From Gibbula magus (taxonomy: Eukaryota; Mollusca; Gastropoda; Trochida; Trochidae): a DNA stretch of 64,000 bases. How positions within the stretch are numbered: position 1 is the stretch's first letter; every line of letters begins with the position of its first letter. A model generated the notes under the pieces. It had not been told where the DNA came from. It ran no database searches and saw only the letters and a list, made by a program, of their open reading frames with translations. Position numbers and translations under genes: made by a program. Positions 6,470 to 60,602 of the stretch are shown piece by piece. The stretch is from contig OW388300.1 of the NCBI GenBank assembly GCA_936450465.1, positions 49,775,378-49,839,377 on the forward strand, written 5' to 3'.

Positions 6470-7178
6470 GATACCCCCGCTTTTAACATTGGTAAAAAAG
6501 AAATGTTTGAAAATAGCAAAAGGGCATCAATGTTTAAACTTTTGTATGAACAGACCATTATATATAAGTATTATTAAAGCAGAGTAAGTATTACACTTGT
6601 AAGCATGTTTTAGAAGTAAAAGTCGAAAAATTTGAAAAATGTCATTAAATATGCAAATGAGGGTATGAAACATACAAATATGTAAATGAGGGTATGAAAT
6701 ATAAAAATGACAGATGTACACATCAGTGGTTTCGTAACAGTTGAACAATTAGTGTCTGAGTTATGAGTGGAACAAAAAGTGTGAATGGCGAGGATGAAAA
6801 ACGGAGAAAATTTGCATAAATTATGCAAATGAGGGTATGAAACATACAAAAGGCAGATGTACACATCATGGTGATTGTACATATCAAGTTTCTTAACATT
6901 TGGACATATGCTTTCAGAGTTATGAGTGGAACAAAAAGTGTGAATGGTTAAGTCGAAAACGGAGAATATTTGCATAAATTATGCAAATGAGGGTATGAAA
7001 CATACAAAAGGCAGATGTACACATCGTGATGATTATATGTATCAAGTTACAAGACATTTGAACAATTAGTATTTGAGTTATGAGTGGAACAAAAACTGAA
7101 TGGCAAAGTCGAAAAACGGAGAAAATTTGCATAAATTATGCAAATTAGAGTACGAAACATACAAAAGGCACATGTGGG

Positions 7179-7762
7179 GACCATAAAGTGTACATACATA
7201 AAGTTTCATAACAATTGAACAAGTAGTATTTGAGTTATGAGCGGAACCAAAAGTGTAAGCATAGACGCGCACACAAAGACGCTTAAAAGTGGAAAATCTG
7301 AAAAAATAATCATGGAATCTGAGTGAAACATAGAAAAGGCACATCTAGGGACCATAAAGTGTACATGTATAAAGTTTCATAACAATTGAACAAGTAGTAT
7401 TTGAGTTATGAGCGGAACCAAAAGTGTGACCATAGACGCGCACACAAAGACGCTTAAAAGTGGAAAATCTGAAAAAATAATCATGGAATCTGAGGGAAAC
7501 AAAGAAAAGGCACATCTAGGGACCATAAAGTGTACATGTATAAAGTTTCATAACAATTGAACAAGTAGTATTTGAGTTATGAGCGGAACCAAAAGTGTGA
7601 CCATAGACGCGCACACAAAGACGCTTAAAAGTGGAAAATCTGAAAAAATAATCATGGAATCTGAGGGAAACATAGAAAAGGAACATCTAGGGACCATAAA
7701 GTGTACATGTATAAAGTTTCATAACAATTGAACAAGTAGTATTTGAGTTATGAGCGGAACCA
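7179..7762. repeat. 171-bp tandem repeat array
   Basis: Units begin GACCATAAAGTGTACAT at 7,179, 7,350, 7,521 and 7,692, an exact 171-bp period. They contain TTTGAGTTATGAGCGGAACC and GACGCGCACACAAAGACGC. Unit-to-unit differences are few, so this part of the array is younger than the 158-bp units to its left. Confidence 0.92.
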
Positions 7763-7771
7763 AAAGTGTTC

Positions 7772-7809
7772 CGGACGGACGGACGGACGGACGCAAGGAC
7801 GGACGGACG
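7772..7809. repeat. (GGAC)n microsatellite
   Basis: Repeated GGAC/CGGA units with one CAAG interruption, directly after the tandem core of the element. Confidence 0.9.
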
Positions 7810-17873: not shown

Positions 17874-18222
17874 AAAAACGACGTGAGTGACATCAGTCTG
17901 GATCAGTTATTAAGGGATTACAATGTACCAAAGCTAGATAATATCTTGTCATGATCATTGGAGTGAAATCTTGAATATGAAGAATTATGTGCAGCACTAA
18001 AGTGTTTGAAAAAGATAAGAGCCCTGGGCCGGATGGTTCACGTCTGAATTCTTAAAATTCTTTCGGAACAAGACAAATCAATTCTTAATAAGATCAATAA
18101 ATCAATCATACTATATAGGTGAATTATCTACTTCTTTAAAAAGAGGACTAATTACTTGCATACCAACATTTTAGAAACCAAAGATGTTTCTGAGAAATTG
18201 AAGATCAATCTCGCTCCTATCA

Positions 18223-18501
18223 GTGTTCTATAAGATAGCTTCCCTTGCAATATCGAAAAGAATAAAAGCTGTGCTCTCTACTTTAATAAGAAAAGATCAG
18301 AAAGGTTTCATGTCAGGAAGATACGTCGGTGAGATAACAAGACTAATATATGACCTTATGGAACATACCGAATCTCACCAAATTCCTAGACTCCACCTCC
18401 TTATAGATTTCGAAAAAGCATTAGATAGAGTCGACTGGTCATTTATAGATAAGACACTTGCTGTCTTTAATATTGGGCAATGGAATCAAATGTATTGGTG
18501 A
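18223..18501 (+). pseudogene. LINE A: reverse transcriptase fingers and palm, motif A
   Basis: Contains AISKRIKAVLSTLIRKDQKGF, the conserved block where L1-type RT has (S/A)NRLKxxLxxxIxxDQxGF, then the RYVGE and IYDLMEH region. Next comes LLIDFEKALDRVDW, motif A with the catalytic Asp present (D of LIDF). Sequence downstream is frameshifted, and the GxxQGDPLSPxLF block (motif B) is largely deleted: only a YILCAEILAL-like remnant is readable at about 18,547-18,580. It is closely related to LINE C at 60,015. Confidence 0.85.
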
Positions 18502-18639
18502 ATGGTTATGGCTCGCCTATGTTCGATTTACAAAGCTCTCCTTATATATACATTTTATGTGCTGAAATCCTTGCTTTAATGATAAATATTAATAAGAACA
18601 TCAAAGGGATAACAATAGGCAATATATAATTTCTACTCA

Positions 18640-18989
18640 ACCAATTTGCAGACGATACAACGTGCATCTTAGATGGATCTGAACGATGTCTTTTTTCTGT
18701 GTTAAGTGTACTGCATTTTTTGACCAGATTCTCATGGCTTAAAGTTAACATTGAAAAAACGCGTCTCCTCTGGATTGGCTCAAAGAAACGATCAAAAATG
18801 AAGCTTTGTCCTCAGCTTAATCTTAACTGGGATCAAAATAAGTTTGACCTCTTAGATATAACGTTCACTCATGACCTTGAATATATGAAAGAAACAAACT
18901 ACAAAGATAAGATAAGATCGCGTGAACGTTTAATGTATATATGGTCAACACACGACCTTACTGTTACTGTTACTGAAAGGTTGTCTTAA
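18640..18989 (+). pseudogene. LINE A: RT motif C and thumb
   Basis: NQFADDTTCILDGSE, read around 18,640-18,685, is the F/YADD catalytic motif with both Asp present. A shift of frame leads to the SWLKVNIEKTRLLWIGS block (thumb; compare FSGLKINxxKTxxxWIGS), then DLLDITFTHDLEYM and NYKDKI, matching the same positions in LINE C. The residues of the active site survive, but frames are broken on both sides. Confidence 0.8.
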
Positions 18990-19152
18990 AATCTTTAATT
19001 ATTCCAAAGTTACACCACCTTTTTAGCTCATTACCAGATCAAAACAGTGATGTTATAAATGCATTTTTAAAAATGTTTTAAATTCATCTGGAGAAACAAA
19101 CCTGACAATATTTAGGGAAATCAAATATATTGCGACAAAAAGAATGGATGAT

Positions 19153-19885
19153 TTAAAGAGGTTCCAAACAATAATCAAAATAAATGAAAAATTGCTGTAA
19201 ATTGGCATGTATCAAGCTAAATATGTATTATTGAAGATTCAAAAAGAAAAAGTGTGTCTCACGAACCTTTTTTCTGCAAAATGGGAAAATTGTTTCAATT
19301 TGTTGGGGTCACTTTTAAAAAAAAATAATGATGATCATTCAGAGCTATATTGTTTTTTTTTCATAAATGGAATGTTATTAGAGTAGAAAAGTGATTTATG
19401 CAAGTTGTATGTTGCTTTTTTTCATTAACCTTATTTGATAAAATACTATGTCAACAATGGATTCTGCAGAAATAACTTCAAAAGTCCTGTTCAAGAATAA
19501 AAATTAAATGAAAAATAATTCAAACATGATAAAACTTGTGGAAAACTTACCGCTGAAGAAAGATAGAAAATAGAAAGTATATGTGACGGACCTATTTTCT
19601 GAGTAATTTGATGCTAAAGTTGGATATTTGTGAAAAGTATTGAAAAAGGAAGATAACTCTTCACTGGAAGTTGTATATTTTTTATTACATAATTCATTAT
19701 ATGAGGTTGTAGACTTTATTCTTTTTCCATAAAAAATGAACCATTTGACACAACAATAATACCATAACCTTTATCCATTAGTATCCAAAGGTAATTTGAT
19801 TTTTAATGTTTCTCACAACACACTGTTGATGAAATATGGACCTAAGCTATTAACTTCTAAGAGCGAAAATCTGACAATTGGAGAT
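19153..19885. mobile_element. Diverged internal fragment of the 1.87-kb element family, nested in LINE A
   Basis: From AGAGGTTCCAAACAATAAT to GTATCCAAAGGTAATTTGAT and on to CACTGTTGATGAAA-ATGGACC this matches about 47,676-48,400 of the right-hand 1.87-kb element, same orientation. Many substitutions separate them. Neither 14-bp terminal repeat is present. LINE A coding sequence lies on both sides (IWRNKPDN before, VPNIKATIQAQKIS after), so the fragment is an insertion into the LINE. Confidence 0.8.
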
Positions 19886-20102
19886 GTGCGTGGGCAATTG
19901 TCACGATCCTCTTAATGTCCCTAATATAAAAGCAACAATCCAAGCTCAGAAAATATCGATGATAACACGTTTACTCATCTCAGATTCAAAATGGTGTTAT
20001 CTTTTTAACCTCAACCTCCCTAAATTAGGTATTACTAGTATAATGGAACATAACTGTGATTACTTGCGACCAGAACTGCTTTCGCTCACACCTAACAATT
20101 AA
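19878..20102 (+). pseudogene. LINE A: post-RT region
   Basis: The NVPNIKATIQAQKISMITRLL stretch aligns by eye with the VPDIRNILLSQKISWVRRLF stretch of LINE C at about 60,920-60,980. This is the block following FxWxGKxxKIKR in Tx1/L1-type proteins (GGLxxxDIxxxxxxxKxxWIxRLL). The first codons belong to the junction with the nested insertion. It ends in a stop soon after SLTPNN. Confidence 0.7.
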
Positions 20103-20221
20103 TTACTATAAAGACATTTTGACTGCATGGTGGGATTTCAACACTAGAACAGAATGTAACGAAAACGATTTGCTAGCAGAAAATATTTGTCCCTAATTTA
20201 GGTACGGGTTTTAATGTGGTA

Positions 20222-20325
20222 TCGAGGCGAAATGGTCGTGTGGTACAGTCAATGCTGGCGAATGTTGCCTTACTCTGAGGGCGTGGGTTCGAATGGGACT
20301 CGGTCTGAAAAAGTAAAAAAAAATG
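20222..20325 (+). mobile_element. Short tRNA-related SINE inserted in LINE A
   Basis: Begins GAGGCGAAATGGTCGTGTGG, with a TGGTCGTGTGGT A-box region. Next come a variable-arm-like stretch and GGGCGTGGGTTCGAATGGGA, which includes GGTTCGAAT of the B box. It ends CTCGGTCTGAAAAAG followed by A9. LINE A-type sequence (IWFNINISIGRKPV-like) resumes after it. The B box deviates at TCC (here GGG), so a functional promoter is doubtful. Confidence 0.65.
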
Positions 20326-20983
20326 TACTATCGACAGCAGTGTTATCCAAATATAATCATGTTAGAAAATATTTGGTTTAACATTAATATATCTATTGGA
20401 CGTAAACCTGTTTTATTTACAATAGCTGGAATCAAAAGGGAGTACGTCTCTTTAATGATCCTGTTGATACAGATGGGAGATTCATGAGGTTCGACGAATT
20501 TTCTAAAACGTTCGAAATAAAAACAAACTTCCTTACCTATAATGGCCTAATCGCAAGCATTAAAAACCATTTCGATAAAAACAATCTGAATTCTAAAAAT
20601 ATGAACAAATTGGAAAACCCTATTCTGCCTCAAAATTATTATAAAATATGTTAAAGGATCTAAGTATTTTCATAACATACTGCTTACACCCATCATGACA
20701 AAAAATCTACACAGCACAAAATGGGAACAAAACGTCTTTAACGATTACCCATTTGATAACTGGTAACATTACAATACCATACCTTTTCGATTCAAGAAAA
20801 GACACAAGAGACGTCAATGGTTTCAAATTTGGCAGCATATACTTCAAACCAATGTTTTCGTGTATAAATTAGGTTATGTTGACAGTCCAAATTGTAGTTT
20901 CTGTTTCAAGGATATCGAGACACCAGTCCATCCTTTTTGGTCGTGGTTAACCAAATCTGGCAACAACTAGAAACCTGGCTCTT
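20326..20983 (+). pseudogene. LINE A: C-terminal region with CxxC motif
   Basis: Fragments in shifting frames read WFNINISIGRKPVLF, then YNSWNQKGVRLFNDPVDT (a WNxKGIxxxxDLxD block typical of L1/Tx1 C-termini). Then FQIWQHILQTNVFVYKLG and PNCSFC-FKDIETPVHPFW follow, where CxxC followed by H forms the putative zinc-binding end of such ORF2 proteins. Several stops interrupt it. The following SINE replaces the true 3' end. Confidence 0.78.
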
Positions 20984-21233
20984 AATAATAATAATAATAA
21001 CACTTTATTGTCCTCATTACAATGAATTCGGAAATTCGATTTGTGCCAGTGGCACCCGGCAGCCACAGTACAGCGCCAGTTCAAGCGTTGCTCTATCCTT
21101 ATAATGCTGAGCGCCAAGCAAGGAAGCAACAACTCCCATCTTTTAACGTGTTTTGGTATGACGCGGCCGGGAATCGAACCCCGACCTACCGGGTGACGAG
21201 CAGACGCTCTATCAACTGAGCTACATCCCCGGT
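20984..21233 (-). mobile_element. tRNA-derived SINE, minus strand
   Basis: On the minus strand the head starts near 21,232 with GGGGATGTAGCTCAGTTGAT and AGAGCG (good A box). It then has GGGGTTCGATTCCCGG (perfect B box GGTTCGATTCC), then CGCGTCATACC. The body includes GGAGTTGTTGCTTCCTTGC and CTTGGCGCTCAGCATTATAA. The tail is GACAATAAAGTG followed by (TTA)n. The anticodon arm is not paired, so this is a SINE and not a tRNA gene. It sits at the broken 3' end of LINE A. Confidence 0.88.
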
Positions 21234-22582: not shown

Positions 22583-23460
22583 GGCATCAGTATGTTAGCA
22601 TCATAAACTCAAATTCGTCCATCCAGAGGTTGCTCAGTACTGGGCACAATATTATTCGCCATGTTCACCACTCCACTTGGAGGCGTCATATCTCACAATA
22701 GCACTGCATACTATCTCTATGCACAACTTCAGGATGGCTGGACAGATGCACTTTCCCAGCACAATACAATCACAAACATGGAGACCTGCATTGAAGATGT
22801 CAAGTCATGGACGGGTGAAAACTGTATAAATTTAAATGATGACAAAACTGAATCAATGGTCCTTGATCCTCAAAAACGACTTCAGCAAATGAATGTAGAT
22901 CATTTGCAGGTTGGCTCCACAAGTTTGTGTTCGCCAGCGGGGAAAAATATAGGTGTTTACTTTGACTCTGCACTTAATATGGACAAACAGGTTAGCGAAA
23001 TCGTCCAGAAATGCTTTTTTCACATCAGATGTATTGGCAACATCCGCCACGTGACACAGAATCAGCAGCTTCGTCACTTACTGCAACAGTGTTCTCATTG
23101 GTACATCAGCAGAAAACAAAAACAGCGCTTGCAGAAAATGCAGTATATTGTTGCAAGAATTGTAGTTCGGGCTAATGACTCCCGCACGTCTCCAATACTT
23201 AGACAGTTTCACAGGCTACCTGTCAAACAGCGAGTTGAGTTAACGTGCTTGTACTGACCCATCGATGTGTGTATGGTAAAGCTCCAGACTACTTGCAGAA
23301 CCTTGTTTGTGTGTATAACCCGACGAGGTCTCTGCGTTCCAGTGCCCAGTTGCAATTCCAAGTGCCCACATTTAAACTGAAAACTGTGGCTGCAAAGTCT
23401 TCATGTGAACTTTTCAAACGCAAACTTAAAACTCACCTTTTCCCAGATACCTGTTAGCGC
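22583..23460 (+). pseudogene. LINE B: RT C-terminal half
   Basis: The long frame 22,661-23,257 begins MFTTPLGGVISHNST, matching LFxxYTxPLGxVIxxHxxxYHLYADDTQLY in CR1/L2 elements. Here the motif reads YYLYA-QLQD, lacking the Asp-Asp-Thr of YADDTQ (a 9-bp in-frame deletion). It continues with INLNDDKTESMVLDP, GVYFDSALNMDKQ, FFHIRCIGNIRH and LPVKQRVELT. A frameshift near 23,245 moves it to the next frame (LTHRCVYGKAPDYLQNLV, PTRSLRSSAQ, KRKLKTHLF). The enzyme is dead on two counts: motif A is altered and motif C deleted. Confidence 0.85.
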
Positions 23461-33915: not shown

Positions 33916-35670
33916 GTTTTCTTCACACCAATCTTGGCTCAACACTTTAGAGAATGATCATTCAATTAGACTTCAAGTTTACGTTACAAAGTTTTCAGAC
34001 TTTTGGCCTTTTCTAAATATCACACCAGACTCATATCTTGTCTTCTTCATTAAACAGTCTTTTAATGTTGTTTCTATTCAACTTACAGCATGTTTTGTAC
34101 TTAACAAATTGTAAACCTGTTTGACTTAACTTCACTTTCACTTACATCAACTTGGTTTTGAAGTTGTGTTTCTAAAATGAAATGTCTGGGAATGCCAGTT
34201 AATATATAATCATTCGTTCAGACTTCGTCACAATTTCTCATATACGGCAGCTTTAAAGATAGTTGTGTGCCAATATATAGCAGTTACGACAAACTGCAAC
34301 TAACCAAATTGAAATTGAAATTGAAACCTTTGAAATTGTGAAAAAAGACTTTCAGACAGACTGACATTTTTTAATTCAGTAGTGAGGCCATAGGGCCCTG
34401 ATACAGGCAAATGCGTAGTCATTGTAGCTCCTTAAATATTGTTTACAAACTGTTTACAGGTGTGACAAAAAGACTTTCGTTTCCTTATATTTCAGATTTT
34501 AGAATCACCCGAAGTCGTGTAATCACAAACTCCCTCTATTGTCTGGCGTTAATTAACTCAGTGACACATTCGCTCGATGTGGACACTTATTTCTGGACTT
34601 TGTTTTTATACGACACAGGGTGTTCACGTCCCGAGAATACCCCGTTACGAATACACTTTAATCCAATATAATCTACATTTCTTTAAATTAAACTTAGGTA
34701 AGCAGGCTTTAAAAACAAAAAACAGAATTTGAGTGGCATTCAAGTATTAAATTTAGTGAACTCGGATATGTTGTAACGTGAACTCTAGATGAACCCAAGA
34801 TCGATGTGTTTAACTTGTAAATGCGCACAGAGCAGATGTGATCCTACAAACCTGCATACAGAGCTTACCTTGAATATAAAAATTTAATGTGCATTTTATA
34901 TGTGAAGCATAACCAACCTTGAGTTACGTGAGGATAAACTATAAGGTGTAATATAATGACATTTAAATGAAATGAAGACGTTTGAACTAAGGCTATTATA
35001 TGAACACCCATTGATGTACAGGTCGTTTAAGATCCATTAGTGAAGAATGAGACACATCTGTCTATTCACTTAATAAACATTCCATGTCGCTAGTTAGCAA
35101 GAGAGTAGACGTGGCTACCAAGTGACTGACAAGATAATTGGGAACAGACAAATCTGAGCCTTGTAGAAAATTATCTACAACACGTACCATGTATTTATCA
35201 ATGAGTGGTGTTCAAGGCAGGATAAAGCCAAATTGAATATATATTGTTCAGGTAATATGCGGATATCGATGCAAATTACTGTGTTAAAATGACACATGAT
35301 GAAAATTAGTATGATGTCACACGCTTTAACATTTGGAATGCCTGAAACGTCGATAACGTCATCAATATAAACGGTTCAAATGATAGATACTTAAAAATAA
35401 AAAAAGTCTGGAAACGTTTTGATAGCATGGCAACGTCATAAAGACCTATTTATATAACCACATAGTGTTAAACCGGTCGCGGATTTATCACTTTATCTAT
35501 GAAGTTGTTAATGTTGATATTATGTAAATACTTTTTTAAGAAATGACATGAAATGAGACTTGTGCAGTTACTTGTGTGGCAAAATTTATTATGATCAAAC
35601 AGTGTCGCAAACATTCGTCGCGGGTTTAAAGCTACCGAACTAACACTGGTACTCGCAGAAAACTAAGACA
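33916..35670. other. No supported gene; one paralogous patch
   Basis: Apart from the direct paralogous patch at 35,020-35,110 nothing is recognisable. The 86-codon frame at 34,411-34,671 has no motif. Confidence 0.5.
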
Positions 35671-36020
35671 GTTTGAGTGGGTGTTATTTTACCTACATGT
35701 AATAGTTTGAGTGGGGTGTTATTTTACCTACATGTAATAGTTTGAGTGGGGTGTTATTTTATCTACATGTAATAGTTGAGTTGGGTGTTATTTTACCTGC
35801 ATGTAATAGTTTGAGTGGGGTGTTATTTTACCTACATATACTAGTTTGATCGGGGTGTTATTTAATATACATGTAATAGTTTTGAGTTGGGTGTTATTTT
35901 ACCTACATGTAATAGTTTGAGTGGGGTGTTATTTTACCTACATGTAATAGTTTGAGTGGGGTGTTATTTTACCTACGTGTACTAGTTTGAGTGGGGTGCT
36001 TATTTTACCTACATGTAATA
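35671..36020. repeat. 35-bp minisatellite, ten units
   Basis: Unit GTTTGAGTGGGGTGTTATTTT followed by ACCTACATGTAATA, ten copies in 350 bp, with single-base changes and 1-bp indels between units. Confidence 0.96.
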
Positions 36021-42815: not shown

Positions 42816-42881
42816 TAAAAATGAAAAGATTCATAATTATAAGAAAACATTAGCTACAGTGACAAAATTGCGACCATAAGA

Positions 42882-44752
42882 TAGCTATGCTCAAGGTCAA
42901 GGGCAGTAACTCTTACTAGACTGTCCAAAATAACTGAAAACCCCAGTCTTGAGGGTACTGTTGACTATACCATCTTTTCAAGCTTTTATCATGAAATTAC
43001 GCGCTAAAACTGACGTGCATTATGATCCAGGGTAATAGGGCCACGTGTAACAGCTGTATTTTGCTTTTCAGCTCCTTTTCCCGAGTTGATACATATAAAT
43101 ATAATTTTCAATGTAAATTTTACTTTTGAAAACGAATTATTACGCCTCTAAATCTTAATGTATTTCAGACTTAAATCTTTTAGGATAATTATCCCAATAT
43201 TTACAAAATTATTTAGGTGGGATACATGCATTTAAAGATTTTTTTGTAAAACTGGTAAAATCCATTAGCGGTCTTCAGTGAGGTCAGATTACCTCCCTTT
43301 GTAAATCTCGCCCTCAGGACTTAATAACTTAGGTCCATTTTTCATCAACAGTGTGCTGTGAGAAACATTAAAAATCAAATTACCTTTGGATACTTATAAA
43401 GAAAGGTAATGGTATTATGATTGTGTGAAAAAGTTTATGTTTTATGGTAAAAAAATTATCTGTTCTACAACCTTTTATAAATGAATTATGTAATTAAAAA
43501 TCAAAATTTTCCAAAGAAGAGTTATCTCCCTTTGCCAATATTTTTGATAATTTTCAACTTCAGCATCAAATTACTCAGAAAATAGGTCTGTGACATATAT
43601 TTTTTATTTTCTATTATTCTTCAGCTGTATGTTTTCCACAAGTATTATCATGTTTGAATTATTTTTCATTTATTTGTTATTATTGAACAGGACTTTTGAA
43701 GTTATTTCTGCAGAATCCAGTGTTGACATTGCATCTTATCATGTAAGGCAAATGAAAAAAAAGCAACATACAAATGAAGAAATCACTTTTCTATTCTAAT
43801 AACATTCCATTTATCAAATAAAACAACAATAAAGCTCTGAATGATCATTTTAAAGTGACCTTAACAAAAAATTAAAAAGAGTTAGCCTCTTCTTGAGACA
43901 TTACCACAAAAAACATCATTTTGCAGAAAAACAAGCTCCGTGCTAGGCACTTTTTCTTTTTGAATCTCGAATAATACATATTCAGCTTGCATCATGCCAA
44001 TTTACAGCATTTTTTCATTTAATTTCATTATTGTTTGGAACCTCTTACGTTCAGTGTTTAAATAGGTAATAACAAATGATTATCAAGTATAAATGCATTT
44101 TAAAACATACTTTTAAAAACCTTTTTATCCCATTTAGTATAATTTACCAAATATTTAGCTTTTACAAATATAATAAGAATTTTTATATGAAAATGATAAA
44201 TGTTATCTATTTTAGGTTATGGAGCTATTGACCAAATGTTTTTTCTTTGTTCTTAGTTATGTTTTAATATTAAATACATATTTTTTTATAATAACTGGTT
44301 ATTTACTGACAACTGTGTGGTTATTATTCTGTCATATCTTAACATATATTAATGATAATGCCTATCAGAAATGGTAAATGGCAGTGTGTTTGGGTTCAAT
44401 ACTCATTTCCGCCTATGATTTTCCAACTGTTTTCCAATTTTCTAAAAATATTATGAAGGTATTTCACCATAAAAGTTATTAATTTGCATCAGAAATGTTG
44501 GAATGCTATTTTTGGTTTTGTAATTTTGTAGATATTGCCAAAATTAAATTTTTTATGGATCCCAGACACCTTTTGCTAATTTCCTGGTTTCTGAAAACCA
44601 GACGGTCATGTACTTTGAACATTTTTCACATCAAAATATTGGAAGTAAAAAAAGTTTTAAAAATATTTTTTTCTTTTCTATACATTAAGCTACACAAAAC
44701 ATATTTCAGAATAATTTTAATATTTTTTTTCAAAAAAGCTTGAGCATAGCTA
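42882..44752 (+). mobile_element. 1.87-kb TIR element, left copy, 7-bp target duplication
   Basis: Starts TAGCTATGCTCAAGG and ends CTTGAGCATAGCTA, a 14-bp terminal inverted repeat. CATAAGA stands immediately outside both ends (42,875-42,881 and 44,753-44,759). The interior is AT-rich with no transposase. The 82-codon frame at 44,495-44,743 is identical in both copies but lacks motifs and reflects the identity of the DNA. It includes CCTCCCTTTG and TCTCCCTTTG motifs. A 7-bp duplication is uncommon: hAT and P elements usually make 8, and Dada elements are reported with 6-7. The superfamily is not assigned. Confidence 0.9.
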
Positions 44753-44759
44753 CATAAGA

Positions 44760-46959
44760 CACAAAATAAACATTGTGGAATATGACCTTACACATTAACC
44801 GCTGTGTCACTTTCGTTTAATTTTGGGTTCTTTACTTGGACTGAAAAAGATAATTCGAAGAAAAGAAGCTTATATATTCTGATGTGAGGTGAAACTTTAT
44901 TCTACCTGACAAAAATCATTTTTCAAATATCATATAAACTTAAACTCAATGTGTCCAATAACATTTGCTAAACACAACACTCGATCGGGCCTTCAAGACA
45001 TTGTAGCACGCTGTTCTAACTGATGACCATTTTCTATGGATACGATGTATGAGGCCGTGTAATGAAATGTTTTACCTGCTCACGTAACAAACTATTGTAT
45101 AAACTTTAATAATAAATGGCAAATTTGAGAAAACAAAATTTGCCAAAAGCGCCTACAGCGCCTATAAGTATTGAGGCTCAATTATGTAAGACAACTGCCA
45201 CACTTTGATCGATACACTTCTATATAGCCTACATATTATTTTCCATTGCTAGTTAGTAAGTATCTGTATTGAGTCAAGGTTGGTGAGGTTAACACGAGAA
45301 ACACTTCATAAAGCTAGCCAATTGTGCTCCTTCATTGTGGTCCTCCATCGTCCGATTCTACAGGTCCTGTGATATGAGCTTTTATGGTTATCATTATGTC
45401 ATACTGAATACATCCTGTTTGATCATTATTAGAGGTCGAGTAACCAGCGTTATTCAAAATGGTATGACCAATGATAAACACTGATTTCAAATCAAATCAA
45501 CATACGTTTAGTGCTATTGTCAAAGAAATCAGATATTTATCGGGTGCTAAAATTAGCCTCAGGCTGTCATTCCTTCATTACGGCTTCTCTGTAGTTTTCT
45601 ATCACTCTCATGCCAGCACTTATCTGTATTGAGAGTGTACGACTGGGTCGATAATCACACTTCCCAGGTTGTCCCCGTTATGCAAATCAGTCAAATGTTT
45701 ACCTTTAGATCGATTCTATTTTGGGACGGTTCGGTTACTGCCTCTCACGTCCTGGAGGAAAGTATTAATGAACTATTGTATCTCTGTACCATTGGATTAT
45801 TACCGTAAGTGGATTTAACGTTGGCATCTGTATTCTACAGGAAATATTGCGTTCGTGCCATGAAACGAATTGTGACATGAGAGTGATATACCCAAATCTA
45901 CTGTCAAGCAATTGCTGATTATACGCCGCACCTTCTGTTAGATAGCATTGCCATGGACGTAACCTGACGTCATAGCACTGTTAATGACGTCGACGTCACG
46001 TCCCAATGATGAAATGATATGTCACCCTATAAACCCCGGTATATCACCCTCGACGTCAATAAACGTATATAAACTTCTATATGTATTTACATTGCTTGTG
46101 TGACAGCCAAAAGGGTTTTCTGATGACTTGCCTTCACATAATCACAGTGATAGCACATGGTCTTGTCTTCATTGTTAGCATACTGTTCTGTCGTCACAGT
46201 ACAATGACGATATATCACGAGAACGTCACCATGCAATTACCACAAATTAAGTAGTGTGCCATCCGTTCAGCTGGCCCCGTGTATGATAAGCACACGCTGC
46301 CTTAGAAACGACATGACCAGCCATAAGGAAAACACATGACAAAAACCTTTATCATCCATAAAACGTGCCGAAATGGGAATAGGGACATTGTGTATTATTC
46401 AACTATTGTAACTTCCAATGAGGTTCCAATGAGGTAATGAATACCATCTTGCGACAGGGGAAGGAAGGATCGCCCATTATTTACTGAATTAATATCATTC
46501 GGGAATGATGATCATTCATTCGTTAGTAATGACGAGTAATGAGCTCTTACTCGAGATTTGAAATCTGATACTTGTGGTAGTATGTCTAATCACTTTATGC
46601 CTCCCGATAAACTCTCACCCAGCACTGACAAGGTGGTAACGGTAAACATAGATACCCTGTACTTACACGTGGTGAGGTGTTCGTCTTGAACAGATAAGTG
46701 ACAGATCTGTTTTACTATTTTTACTATTTTAAGTTAAACCTCATATAAGATTCACAATTCCTAGATTCATAATGGGATCATTGACTACCGGTTGACGTAC
46801 ATGACGAGAGTGTAAAATGCTTTCGCACTTCTATGCGATATTTAGAGAAACTGTGAGAGTTGCAAATCAGGTTACATAGATTTTAAAATCCTAGCTGTAG
46901 ACGTTGATCTCAAGAGCCATTATACTTATGATAAAATATGCATAGCGAAAATAAGGACA
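44760..46959. other. Spacer between the two 1.87-kb elements; no supported gene
   Basis: About 2.2 kb of unique-looking sequence. 44,990-45,125 shares patches with 37,350-37,730 (GTAGCACG-TGTTCT, AATGGCAAATTT). 45,955-45,995 has TGACGTCA and ACGTCGACGTCACGTC, a CRE-like palindromic group. No coding motif. Confidence 0.55.
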
Positions 46960-46966
46960 CACTTTG

Positions 46967-48839
46967 TAGCTATGCTCAAGCTTTTTTGAAAAAAAATATT
47001 AAAATTATTCTGAAATATGTTTTGTGTAGCTTAATGTATAGAAAAGAAAAAAATATTTTTAAAACTTTTTTTACTTCCAATATTTTGATGTGAAAAATGT
47101 TCAAAGTACATGACCGTCTGGTTTTCAGAAACCAGGAAATTAGCAAAAGGTGTCTGGGATCCATAAAAAATTTAATTTTGGCAATATCTACAAAATTACA
47201 AAACCAAAAATAGCATTCCAACATTTCTGATGCAAATTAATAACTTTTATGGTGAAATACCTTCATAATATTTTTAGAAAATTGGAAAACAGTTGGAAAA
47301 TCATAGGCGGAAATGAGTATTGAACCCAAACACACTGCCATTTACCATTTCTGATAGGCATTATCATTAATATATGTTAAGATATGACAGAATAATAACC
47401 ACACAGTTGTCAGTAAATAACCAGTTATTATAAAAAAATATGTATTTAATATTAAAACATAACTAAGAACAAAGAAAAAACATTTGGTCAATAGCTCCAT
47501 AACCTAAAATAGATAACATTTATCATTTTCATATAAAAATTCTTATTATATTTGTAAAAGCTAAATATTTGGTAAATTATACTAAATGGGATAAAAAGGT
47601 TTTTAAAAGTATGTTTTAAAATGCATTTATACTTGATAATCATTTGTTATTACCTATTTAAACACTGAACGTAAGAGGTTCCAAACAATAATGAAATTAA
47701 ATGAAAAAATGCTGTAAATTGGCATGATGCAAGCTGAATATGTATTATTCGAGATTCAAAAAGAAAAAGTGCCTAGCACGGAGCTTGTTTTTCTGCAAAA
47801 TGATGTTTTTTGTGGTAATGTCTCAAGAAGAGGCTAACTCTTTTTAATTTTTTGTTAAGGTCACTTTAAAATGATCATTCAGAGCTTTATTGTTGTTTTA
47901 TTTGATAAATGGAATGTTATTAGAATAGAAAAGTGATTTCTTCATTTGTATGTTGCTTTTTTTTCATTTGCCTTACATGATAAGATGCAATGTCAACACT
48001 GGATTCTGCAGAAATAACTTCAAAAGTCCTGTTCAATAATAACAAATAAATGAAAAATAATTCAAACATGATAATACTTGTGGAAAACATACAGCTGAAG
48101 AATAATAGAAAATAAAAAAATATATGTCACAGACCTATTTTCTGAGTAATTTGATGCTGAAGTTGAAAATTATCAAAAATATTGGCAAAGGGAGATAACT
48201 CTTCTTTGGAAAATTTTGATTTTTAATTACATAATTCATTTATAAAAGGTTGTAGAACAGATAATTTTTTTACCATAAAACATAAACTTTTTCACACAAT
48301 CATAATACCATTACCTTTCTTTATAAGTATCCAAAGGTAATTTGATTTTTAATGTTTCTCACAGCACACTGTTGATGAAAAATGGACCTAAGTTATTAAG
48401 TCCTGAGGGCGAGATTTACAAAGGGAGGTAATCTGACCTCACTGAAGACCGCTAATGGATTTTACCAGTTTTACAAAAAAATCTTTAAAATGCATGTATC
48501 CCACCTAAATAATTTTGTAAATATTGGGATAATTATCCTAAAAGATTTAAGTCTGAAATACATTAAGATTTAGAGGCGTAATAATTCGTTTTCAAAAGTA
48601 AAATTTACATTGAAAATTATATTTATATGTATCAACTCGGGAAAAGGAGCTGAAAAGCAAAATACAGCTGTTACACGTGGCCCTATTACCCTGGATCATA
48701 ATGCACGTCAGTTTTAGCGCGTAATTTCATGATAAAAGCTTGAAAAGATGGTATAGTCAACAGTACCCTCAAGACTGGGGTTTTCAGTTATTTTGGACAG
48801 TCTAGTAAGAGTTACTGCCCTTGACCTTGAGCATAGCTA
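46967..48839 (-). mobile_element. 1.87-kb TIR element, right copy, 7-bp target duplication
   Basis: Inverted relative to 42,882-44,752. It begins TAGCTATGCTCAAG and ends CTTGAGCATAGCTA, with CACTTTG on both sides (46,960-46,966 and 48,840-48,846). Length 1,873 versus 1,871. The two differences found by eye are 1-bp length changes in homopolymers (T6/T7 near 43,600 and T3/T4 near 43,231 in left-copy terms). Distinct target duplications show two separate insertions, not one inverted duplication. Confidence 0.9.
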
Positions 48840-48846
48840 CACTTTG

Positions 48847-58928: not shown

Positions 58929-59855
58929 TTCGAGGGGAAGTCAATAAGTTCATAGCAGTAACAATGTAAGTATTCATACAACCCTGAATACATCATCGTT
59001 GATGTTATTACTGAAATAGGTCATCTGACGACAATTCACAGAAATAAACAACCCTTGCCGATCATTTACTTGAGATGTACAACCTGATGAAACCTGTAAT
59101 CATGGAAAGTTCTAAAACTGAGCACCGTGTGGTTATCAAGTTTCTCACTAAAGAAGGAGTGAATACATAAACGTATGATCAATGAGTATGGGAAAGAAGT
59201 CCCTCAATATTTTACTGCAAAATGGTTAGCTAAGTTTAAGCGGGGTCGCAGCTCCTTGGACGATGACCAAAATTCAGGAAGGCTTGTTGAAGCAATTAAC
59301 GATGATATGGTTTCACGGGTCCAGCGCTTAATCCTGTCCGATCGTAGAATAAAGGTGGACGATAAATCTTCAGAGTGTGGCATTTATGATGGAAGTGTTT
59401 GTACCATAATTCATGAGCACCTGTCCAAGGTGTCTGCAAGATGGGTGCAACAAAACTAATATACACAAGATCGACACCAGAGAGTTGAATCTTGTCGTGA
59501 GCTCTTGGACATCTACAATAACGATAACTTCCATGCCCGTCTGGTTACAGGGGATAAAACGTGGATTCATCACTGGGATCCTGACACCAATCAAGAATCC
59601 ATGCAATGGAAGCATAAGCACTCTCTTGCACCGAAGAAGTTCAGAACTCACGATCATGGCGACCATTTTCTGGGATTCAAGGGGCGTGTTATGTATAGAC
59701 TACATGTTTAAACCACCTATAACTGCATTAACAGGAACATACTATTGTTGAAGCATTTGAGAGCGTCGATCACGAAAAAGAGGCGCGGAATGTTGACTGC
59801 TGGACTTATGCTTCTCCATGTGCACAAGAGTCGTATTGCACAAGCTGCTCGTGAT
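58929..59855 (+). mobile_element. mariner transposon, 3' truncated
   Basis: TA (58,927-58,928) is followed by TTCGAGGGGAAGTCAATAAG, a mariner-like terminal repeat. A transposase relic occupies 59,105-59,855. The right half, including the 3' inverted repeat, is missing. Sequence changes directly to LINE C near 59,855, so LINE integration or a deletion removed the end. Confidence 0.8.
59105..59855 (+). pseudogene. mariner (DD34D-type) transposase pseudogene
   Basis: Starts near EHRVVIKFLTKEGVN (59,120), then YGKEVPQYF and KWLAKFKRGRSSLDDDQ. VEAINDDMVSRVQRLILSDR and GSVCTIIHEHL follow (helix-turn-helix half). After a frameshift come RLVTGDKTWIHHWDPD, holding the first catalytic Asp, and ESMQWKHKHS. 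The second catalytic Asp should lie in HDNAPxHKS, but here the text is LLHVHKSRIAQAA, so DNAP is deleted. The third Asp lies beyond the truncation. Two frameshifts and a stop (TAA near 59,168) also break it. This is the family from which SETMAR-type fusions derive. Confidence 0.88.
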
Positions 59856-59917: not shown

Positions 59918-60024
59918 ACGATCAAAAAGGTTGTATGTCAAATAAAACAATCCTCTATCCGACAAGTCAACAAAACTCATTCGAGACATCCTCAGTAACG
60001 ATCAAAAAGGTTTTATGTCAAATA
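59918..60024. repeat. 53-bp patch inserted between 27-bp direct repeats in LINE C
   Basis: ACGATCAAAAAGGTTGTATG plus TCAAATA (59,918-59,944) is repeated at 59,998-60,024 with one mismatch. The 53 bases between them (59,945-59,997) match 58,414-58,466 and 57,751-57,804. The net 80-bp gain shifts the RT frame. Confidence 0.9.
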
Positions 60025-60602
60025 GGTATATTGGAGAATGTACACGCCAAATCTACGATGTTATAGAGTATGTAGAAAGCATGGAAATACCAGGATTGCT
60101 CCTGCTTATAGACTTTGAAAAGGCGTTTGACTCGGTTGACTGGAACTTCATTGAACATGTACTTGATTATTTTAATTTTGGTTTTTCTATTAAGAAATGG
60201 ATCGGTACATTTTATAGAAATACAAAGTCAAGTGTGCTTGTGAACTGTTTTTCATCAGAATTTTTCGAAATTACTCGCGGTTGTAGACAGGGTGATCCGT
60301 TATCGCCATATCTATTCATTATTTGTGCTGAAATCTTAAGCATTATGACACGTAATACTAAGAATATAAAAGGGATAAAGATAGGGAATACGGAATACCT
60401 CAATTCGCAGTTCGCAGATGATACCTCTTTGACGTTAGATGGATCAGAAGCTTGCCTTCAGAGTACCCTTCAAACACTAGATCACTATGCTTCTTTTTCA
60501 GGTTTAAAAATAAACACCAGCAAAACGCAAGTTATTTGGATAGGTTCTTTGAAACATTCAAACAAAACATTTTGCAAAAATTATAAACTAGACTGGTCAT
60601 AA
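60015..60602 (+). pseudogene. LINE C: reverse transcriptase core
   Basis: A 195-codon open stretch covering RYIGECTRQIYDVIEYVES, LLLLIDFEKAFDSVDW (motif A, catalytic Asp present), GCRQGDPLSPYLFI (motif B), SQFADDTSLTLDGSE (motif C, both Asp present) and SGLKINTSKTQVIWIGS. All active-site residues of L1/Tx1-type RT survive. The frame before it is displaced by the 80-bp patch, and a TAA after YKLDWS (60,600-60,602) stops it, so no full enzyme can be made. Confidence 0.9.

Follow-up and report, generated by a model that had tools for sequence, protein, structure and literature searches.

A 1.87-kb non-autonomous element with 7-bp target duplications and signs of recent local movement in the genome of Gibbula magus

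The DNA analysed here, called the window throughout, is a stretch of 64,000 nucleotides of contig OW388300.1 (assembly GCA_936450465.1) from the gastropod Gibbula magus. It carries two copies of a 1.87-kb element, which lie 2.2 kb apart in inverted orientation (Table 1). When aligned with MAFFT, the two copies showed no substitutions and differed at two places, by one T each, in runs of T. Both copies end in perfect 14-bp terminal inverted repeats, TAGCTATGCTCAAG, and the 7-bp duplications CATAAGA (left copy) and CACTTTG (right copy, window strand) sit flush against the element ends; two such flush matches would arise by chance with a probability of about 1e-8 at the base composition of the window. 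With up to two mismatches allowed, the 14-mer had four matches in the window, all of them ends of the two copies (shuffled windows gave a mean of 0.35 matches, and four were reached in 1 of 100 shuffles). No stop-free stretch of the left copy exceeds 86 codons, and the element thus has no transposase of its own. A first-pass annotation made from the sequence alone had described two near-identical elements of this length, with 14-bp inverted repeats, 7-bp target duplications and no transposase inside, and the alignment, the flanks and the reading frames agree with it on each of these points. Searches of the window for RNA families at Rfam gathering scores and for tRNAs found nothing.

Table 1. 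Positions in the window of the two element copies, their ends and target duplications, and sequences related to module M
Feature	Position	Strand	Basis
Left copy of element, 1871 bp	42882..44752	+	Sequence read and alignment
Right copy of element, 1873 bp, inverted	46967..48839	-	Sequence read and alignment
7-bp target duplication CATAAGA, left copy, 5' side	42875..42881	.	Flank read
7-bp target duplication CATAAGA, left copy, 3' side	44753..44759	.	Flank read
7-bp target duplication CACTTTG, right copy	46960..46966	.	Flank read
7-bp target duplication CACTTTG, right copy	48840..48846	.	Flank read
14-bp terminal inverted repeat, left copy	42882..42895	+	Motif search
14-bp terminal inverted repeat, left copy	44739..44752	-	Motif search
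14-bp terminal inverted repeat, right copy	46967..46980	+	Motif search
14-bp terminal inverted repeat, right copy	48826..48839	-	Motif search
Module M of left copy (about element 427-1174, approximate ends)	43308..44055	+	Comparison with relatives
Module M of right copy (approximate ends)	47664..48412	-	Comparison with relatives
Older stand-alone module M relative inside broken LINE	19156..19866	-	About 80-81% identity

Other repeats were also seen in the window. Runs of CGGACGCC are repeat motifs of the host DNA, and tandem arrays occupy positions 6647-7809 and 35670-36020, with units of 158/171 bp and 35 bp. Reverse-transcriptase-like frames are present at 59946-60602, 18000-21000 and 22607-23257; one of them matches RVT_1, and the remaining frames, which are degraded or have no Pfam match, were named by eye. 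A weak fragment of a mariner-type Transposase_1, slightly under the cut-off, lies at 59410-59751.

We searched the 1.47-Gb assembly (140 contigs) for the element and its ends. The exact 14-bp end has 87 matches, 47 of them forward and 40 reverse, versus 4 for the reversed control. Ends with one mismatch numbered 338, below the 519 of the control, so the signal resides in the exact ends and the analysis was based on them. The 87 ends fall into three groups: 25 simple pairs (50 ends, among them the two pairs of the window), five longer places (12 ends) and 25 unpaired ends. Simple pairs were picked as perfect ends 1853-1880 bp apart, and the flanks were ignored in this choice. The TAGCWATGCTCAAGGTMAAGGGCAG pattern had 42 matches in the genome versus none for the control; the unmatched ends at C1:67212997 and C1:83923486 both read TAGCAATGCTCAAGG, and the end at C6:17819613 has two mismatches. 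A DNA search with the whole element gave 1215 first-look candidates, the best 40 of which were scored (43 rows), and the number of candidates indicates that more members of the family and more old relatives exist than were compared here. Outside the host, the 14-mer was found in at least 120 stretches of viral contigs, with a single match in each of the 80 listed, which we take as chance; longer end patterns had no match in prokaryote genome contigs or in viral contigs. In open-access text, neither the end sequence nor its reverse complement occurred in a transposon paper; it was present only in two versions of one antimalarial work.

The first-pass annotation had proposed that the 7-bp flanks be tabulated across the genome, and this tabulation revealed a consistent duplication. 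It was exact in all 25 simple pairs, with 25 distinct sequences, and an 8-bp duplication was seen in none. The five longer places correspond to six copies that have nested inserts or are nested in themselves; five of these six have an exact duplication, and the sixth (L151) matches at 6 of 7 bases. Within the set of unpaired ends, the copy L172 carries a single end mismatch, and its 7-bp duplication is exact. The duplication at L138/L171 matches at 6 of 7 bases; that of L188 matches at 2/7 in place and at 6/7 with a displacement of 8 bases. L175 (4/7) and L177 (2/7) were both compared at weak partner ends, and for the other unpaired exact ends no partner was found in the sequence examined around each. 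Two further copies, at C3:25464647 and C7:7611629, have an end mismatch that places them outside the 87, and their 3' ends appear eroded by eye.

Base counts across the 25 targets form a pattern that is symmetric around the duplication centre (r = 0.83); 11 other centres that were tested gave r values from -0.08 to 0.68. The consensus is a weak palindrome, roughly C-W-T-W-A-W-G (CWTWAWG), with A or T as the centre base in 23 of the 25 targets. T at position 3 together with A at position 5 was found in 9/25 targets versus 10% of 850 flanking 7-mers. When compared with flank composition, six of 30 positions had p < 0.05; five of them lie within the duplication, and the one outside it has p = 0.007 (1 of 30 positions).

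Divergence among the 25 copies averages 2.03%, with a maximum of 3.57%. Only two of the 300 copy pairs have no substitutions, i.e., the window pair and the copies at C12:53730029 and C12:53738468, and the next pair stands at 0.69%. The same two pairs are also the only ones of the 300 whose starts are less than 10 kb apart. The C12 copies, 6.6 kb apart, are 100% identical across 1870 bp and have dissimilar flanks in the sequence examined. The two pairs share 11 and 15 private bases that the other 23 copies all lack. Such private bases, combined with the lack of substitutions, imply that one twin is the parent of the other or that both derive from one very recent parent.

Outside the 25, a third pair of close copies was detected at C10:26176088-26179834 (L155), where one copy is inserted within another. 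The inner copy has no mismatches to the two outer parts across 1530 and 347 bp, the two copies carry separate 7-bp duplications, and the inner copy differs at 13 bases from its closest match among the 25. Close pairs among complete copies were therefore found without substitutions in three of three cases, as counted here. Self-insertion cannot leave two whole copies, so the nested arrangement needed a second identical copy at the moment of insertion; judging from the identity and the duplications, a sister chromatid or homologue would be its simplest source. Overall, these patterns point to short, recent local hops as the origin of the neighbouring twins. Local hopping has been reported for P at about 50-150 kb (PMC7776569), farther than the distances observed here.

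The twins might instead be old, separate insertions that were homogenised by gene conversion, in which case their identity would date no recent hop. Copies that are 2.2 and 6.6 kb apart, or nested, are within a possible conversion range; however, in each of the three pairs the identity spans the full element (1871, 1870 and 1530 + 347 bp, with no substitutions), the first two pairs have unlike flanks, and a whole copy within an identical copy is more simply obtained by insertion than by insertion followed by complete conversion. We consider this explanation distinctly improbable. A still more remote one is that the window pair is a local inverted duplication, or an assembly artefact such as one long-armed element or a collapsed repeat. 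Its copies are indeed inverted and nearly identical, but each has a separate flush 7-bp duplication, their outer flanks do not match, and the identical structure occurs in 23 further simple pairs elsewhere. Local inverted duplication with flanks included had been named in the first-pass annotation as one of two outcomes that would overturn its proposal of two separate transpositions of a recently active family, the other being genome copies that lack a consistent 7-bp duplication. The 2-kb outer flanks of the two copies show no similarity, and the duplications across the genome are consistent. The distinct duplications, substitution-free copies and unlike flanks uphold that proposal.

Comparison with relatives suggests that the element has a composite structure. 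A sequence missed by the first-pass annotation, lying inside a broken LINE with a reverse transcriptase remnant (Table 1), matches element positions 427-1165 only. In two older relatives (L183 and L175), nothing matches element positions 427 to about 1160-1174, and the two share junction bases at this site that are absent from the element; L183 also lacks positions 1-89 and 1334-1617. A shared deletion of module M in L183 and L175 is possible. Most simply, however, the element would be a chimera of an older, shorter element and an unrelated repeat, module M. The older relatives L175, L177 and L185 have up to about 640 bp of extra sequence near position 1322, with no convincing frame.

A second family was also identified, represented by a 1291-bp element at C1:13083727 with near relatives at 13094849 (for which no partner end was found) and 13112699. 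It has its ends in common with the 1.87-kb element, one of them with one mismatch, and is different inside. Its duplication, CAGATAG, matches at 7 of 7 bases at L121/L169 and at L123. L169, L170 and L123 (C1:13.08-13.11 Mb) form a cluster with the same CAGATAG flank, and this common duplication and flank suggest that the cluster probably arose by segmental duplication. In both families, one end is similar beyond the 14-mer, in the form AAGGT(C)AAGGGCAG, which is what a putative binding site would look like.

The first-pass annotation had also suggested looking for a longer relative with a transposase, and none was found: no transposase was seen between such ends at the 25 unpaired exact ends, each examined in part. 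The five longer end pairs (2.2-4.6 kb) were considered as autonomous copies and rejected, as all of them are the 1.87-kb element enlarged by inserts, one insert having LINE frames and another being a copy nested in a copy. A 461-aa frame beside the end at C17:20412886 was likewise rejected as the gene of the family, since it belongs to an inserted element of about 4 kb, which lies between element positions 1359 and 1352 and has two inverted near-identical frames; the frame has no Pfam match. Another candidate, of 12.6 kb, is found at C3 (25464647 to about 25477268); its ends were read, the 3' end is eroded, and none of the listed P or hAT matches falls there. The inserted element of about 4 kb was observed at L185 (1618-3001) and L199, its two near-identical frames, inverted relative to each other, measuring 465 and 504 aa. 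A stretch of 459 aa from one of these frames had no Pfam match when scanned, and the protein is possibly an undescribed transposon protein.

Candidate enzymes are present elsewhere in the genome. The TNP-like RNase H domain of P-type transposases has 8 matches, with P-type copies at C1:20.18 Mb, C6:31.70 Mb and C10:72.75 Mb, and all three P-type proteins scanned have all three TNP-like domains. One copy (L194), whose frame spans 880 aa, resembles L195 at 99.4% and L196 at 99.7%; tandem repeats of about 245 bp adjoin the P-type frame in these three loci. The P-type copy at C1:20.18 Mb was not retained as a partner, as no 14-mer with three or fewer mismatches was seen in the 6.5 kb examined around it. 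Across eight 3-kb P-type loci there was a single 14-mer match, with three mismatches, in L197, which we take as chance. Matches to the hAT dimerisation domain are abundant in the genome (the best 150 of 458 candidates were scored).

P element ends start with CA, some hAT elements have ends beginning with TAG, and MULE duplications are about 8-10 bp. The ends here start with TAG, and the 7-bp duplication is within the 7 or 8 bp of P and outside the range of MULEs. The target palindrome centred on the duplication (r = 0.83) is also a P trait, although other superfamilies are expected to have it likewise. Pdre2 ends start with CA (PMC10983969). The first-pass annotation had held that a 7-bp duplication fits few superfamilies, hAT and P usually making 8 bp and Dada 6-7 bp. 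It missed that two members of P make 7 bp: the 1360 duplication is 7 bp in 274 of 279 insertion sites, with the target GTTNAAC (PMC3276498), and Galileo is described with 7-bp duplications and the palindromic target GTANTAC (PMC4168063). An assignment to Dada is likewise unsupported. Dada resembles the element in its duplications of 6-7 bp (PMC3706591), but Dada-U6 and Dada-U1 are described as having sub-terminal inverted repeats and no terminal ones, and Dada inserts into small-RNA genes (PMC3706591), whereas the element has perfect 14-bp ends, 25 distinct and varied targets and no RNA-family match in the window; we regard an origin from Dada as extremely improbable. An enzyme of the hAT superfamily would account for the TAG ends, the local hopping also fits, and genes of this type are plentiful; yet hobo makes 8-bp duplications in 1,196 of 1,198 cases (PMC3276498), as against none of 25 here, and among the matches listed (best 150 of 458) none was seen by eye less than 20 kb from any exact end listed, and we find movement by a hAT transposase unlikely. 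We favour the P superfamily because of the duplication length and the target, with the TAG first bases speaking against it, and tentatively propose that the transposase is of the 1360/Galileo kind.

With its inverted ends, fixed-length duplication at unrelated sites and no transposase of its own, the element is of a kind already known, a non-autonomous cut-and-paste family. Very probably, then, the copies described here represent a non-autonomous family with a 7-bp duplication and recent local hops. In the proposed mechanism, a transposase encoded elsewhere would recognise the 14-bp ends and adjoining bases, excise the element and insert it at sites whose two strands are cut with a 7-bp stagger, palindromes centred on A/T being mildly preferred; the ends, the duplications and the target symmetry were read directly from the genome, and the enzyme and its action are deduced from them. 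Short hops would have produced the neighbouring copies, one having spawned the other or both having come from one very recent parent, and the nested copy at L155 may reflect a hop into the copy on the sister chromatid or homologue. Earlier, an older, shorter element may have taken up an unrelated repeat module to give the chimeric 1.87-kb form. The enzyme would preferentially be sought in the P superfamily of the 1360/Galileo kind, or else among hAT-like enzymes or in another class. A more speculative proposal, which we consider somewhat doubtful, is that the mover is a transposase lineage unnamed in molluscs (a 7-bp P group outside flies or a separate superfamily) that favours very short hops between sister chromatids, including into its own sister copy.

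A strict 7-bp cut, twin pairs and a self-nested twin make this family more informative than most. The three twin pairs offer a direct test for ongoing movement in other individuals, and the self-nested twin suggests that the element moves from one sister chromatid or homologue to the other. Should the enzyme prove to be P-type, 7-bp P elements would reach beyond the fly examples found. We found no paper in open-access text on the combination of molluscs and the P superfamily, and no 7-bp-duplicating bivalve element of the kind among the literature matches listed. Two papers on Galileo and one on Mutator-like elements did appear in the literature listings. The strict cut occurs in an animal group for which little of such kind is described (PMC10294476); in this mollusc survey, P was among the profiles searched and is missing from the list of curated mollusc elements as given there (PMC10294476).

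Several known systems resemble the element in part. Galileo, Newton and Kepler, P-superfamily elements of Drosophila, have 7-bp duplications and a palindromic target, and comprise non-coding copies and several subfamilies with common ends (PMC2775673, PMC4168063). Galileo differs in its long, internally repetitive inverted ends, as opposed to the 14 bp and TAG start seen here, in its target, GTANTAC versus the weak CWTWAWG, and in three D. willistoni copies with 8 bp; it is also set apart in that no transposase is linked to the ends of the element. The 7-bp duplication of 1360, another P element of Drosophila, is shared with the element, and its target GTTNAAC is close to the T-W-A core found here (PMC3276498); the two are likened by duplication and target, although the outer target bases are G...C in 1360 and C...G in the element. 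The P-like Pdre2/THAP9 of zebrafish differs in its 8-bp duplication and its ends, CATACCTGTCAAC (PMC10983969). It is like the element in its short (13-bp) inverted ends and its non-autonomous copies, and it provides an example of a P-type transposase from outside the flies (PMC10983969).
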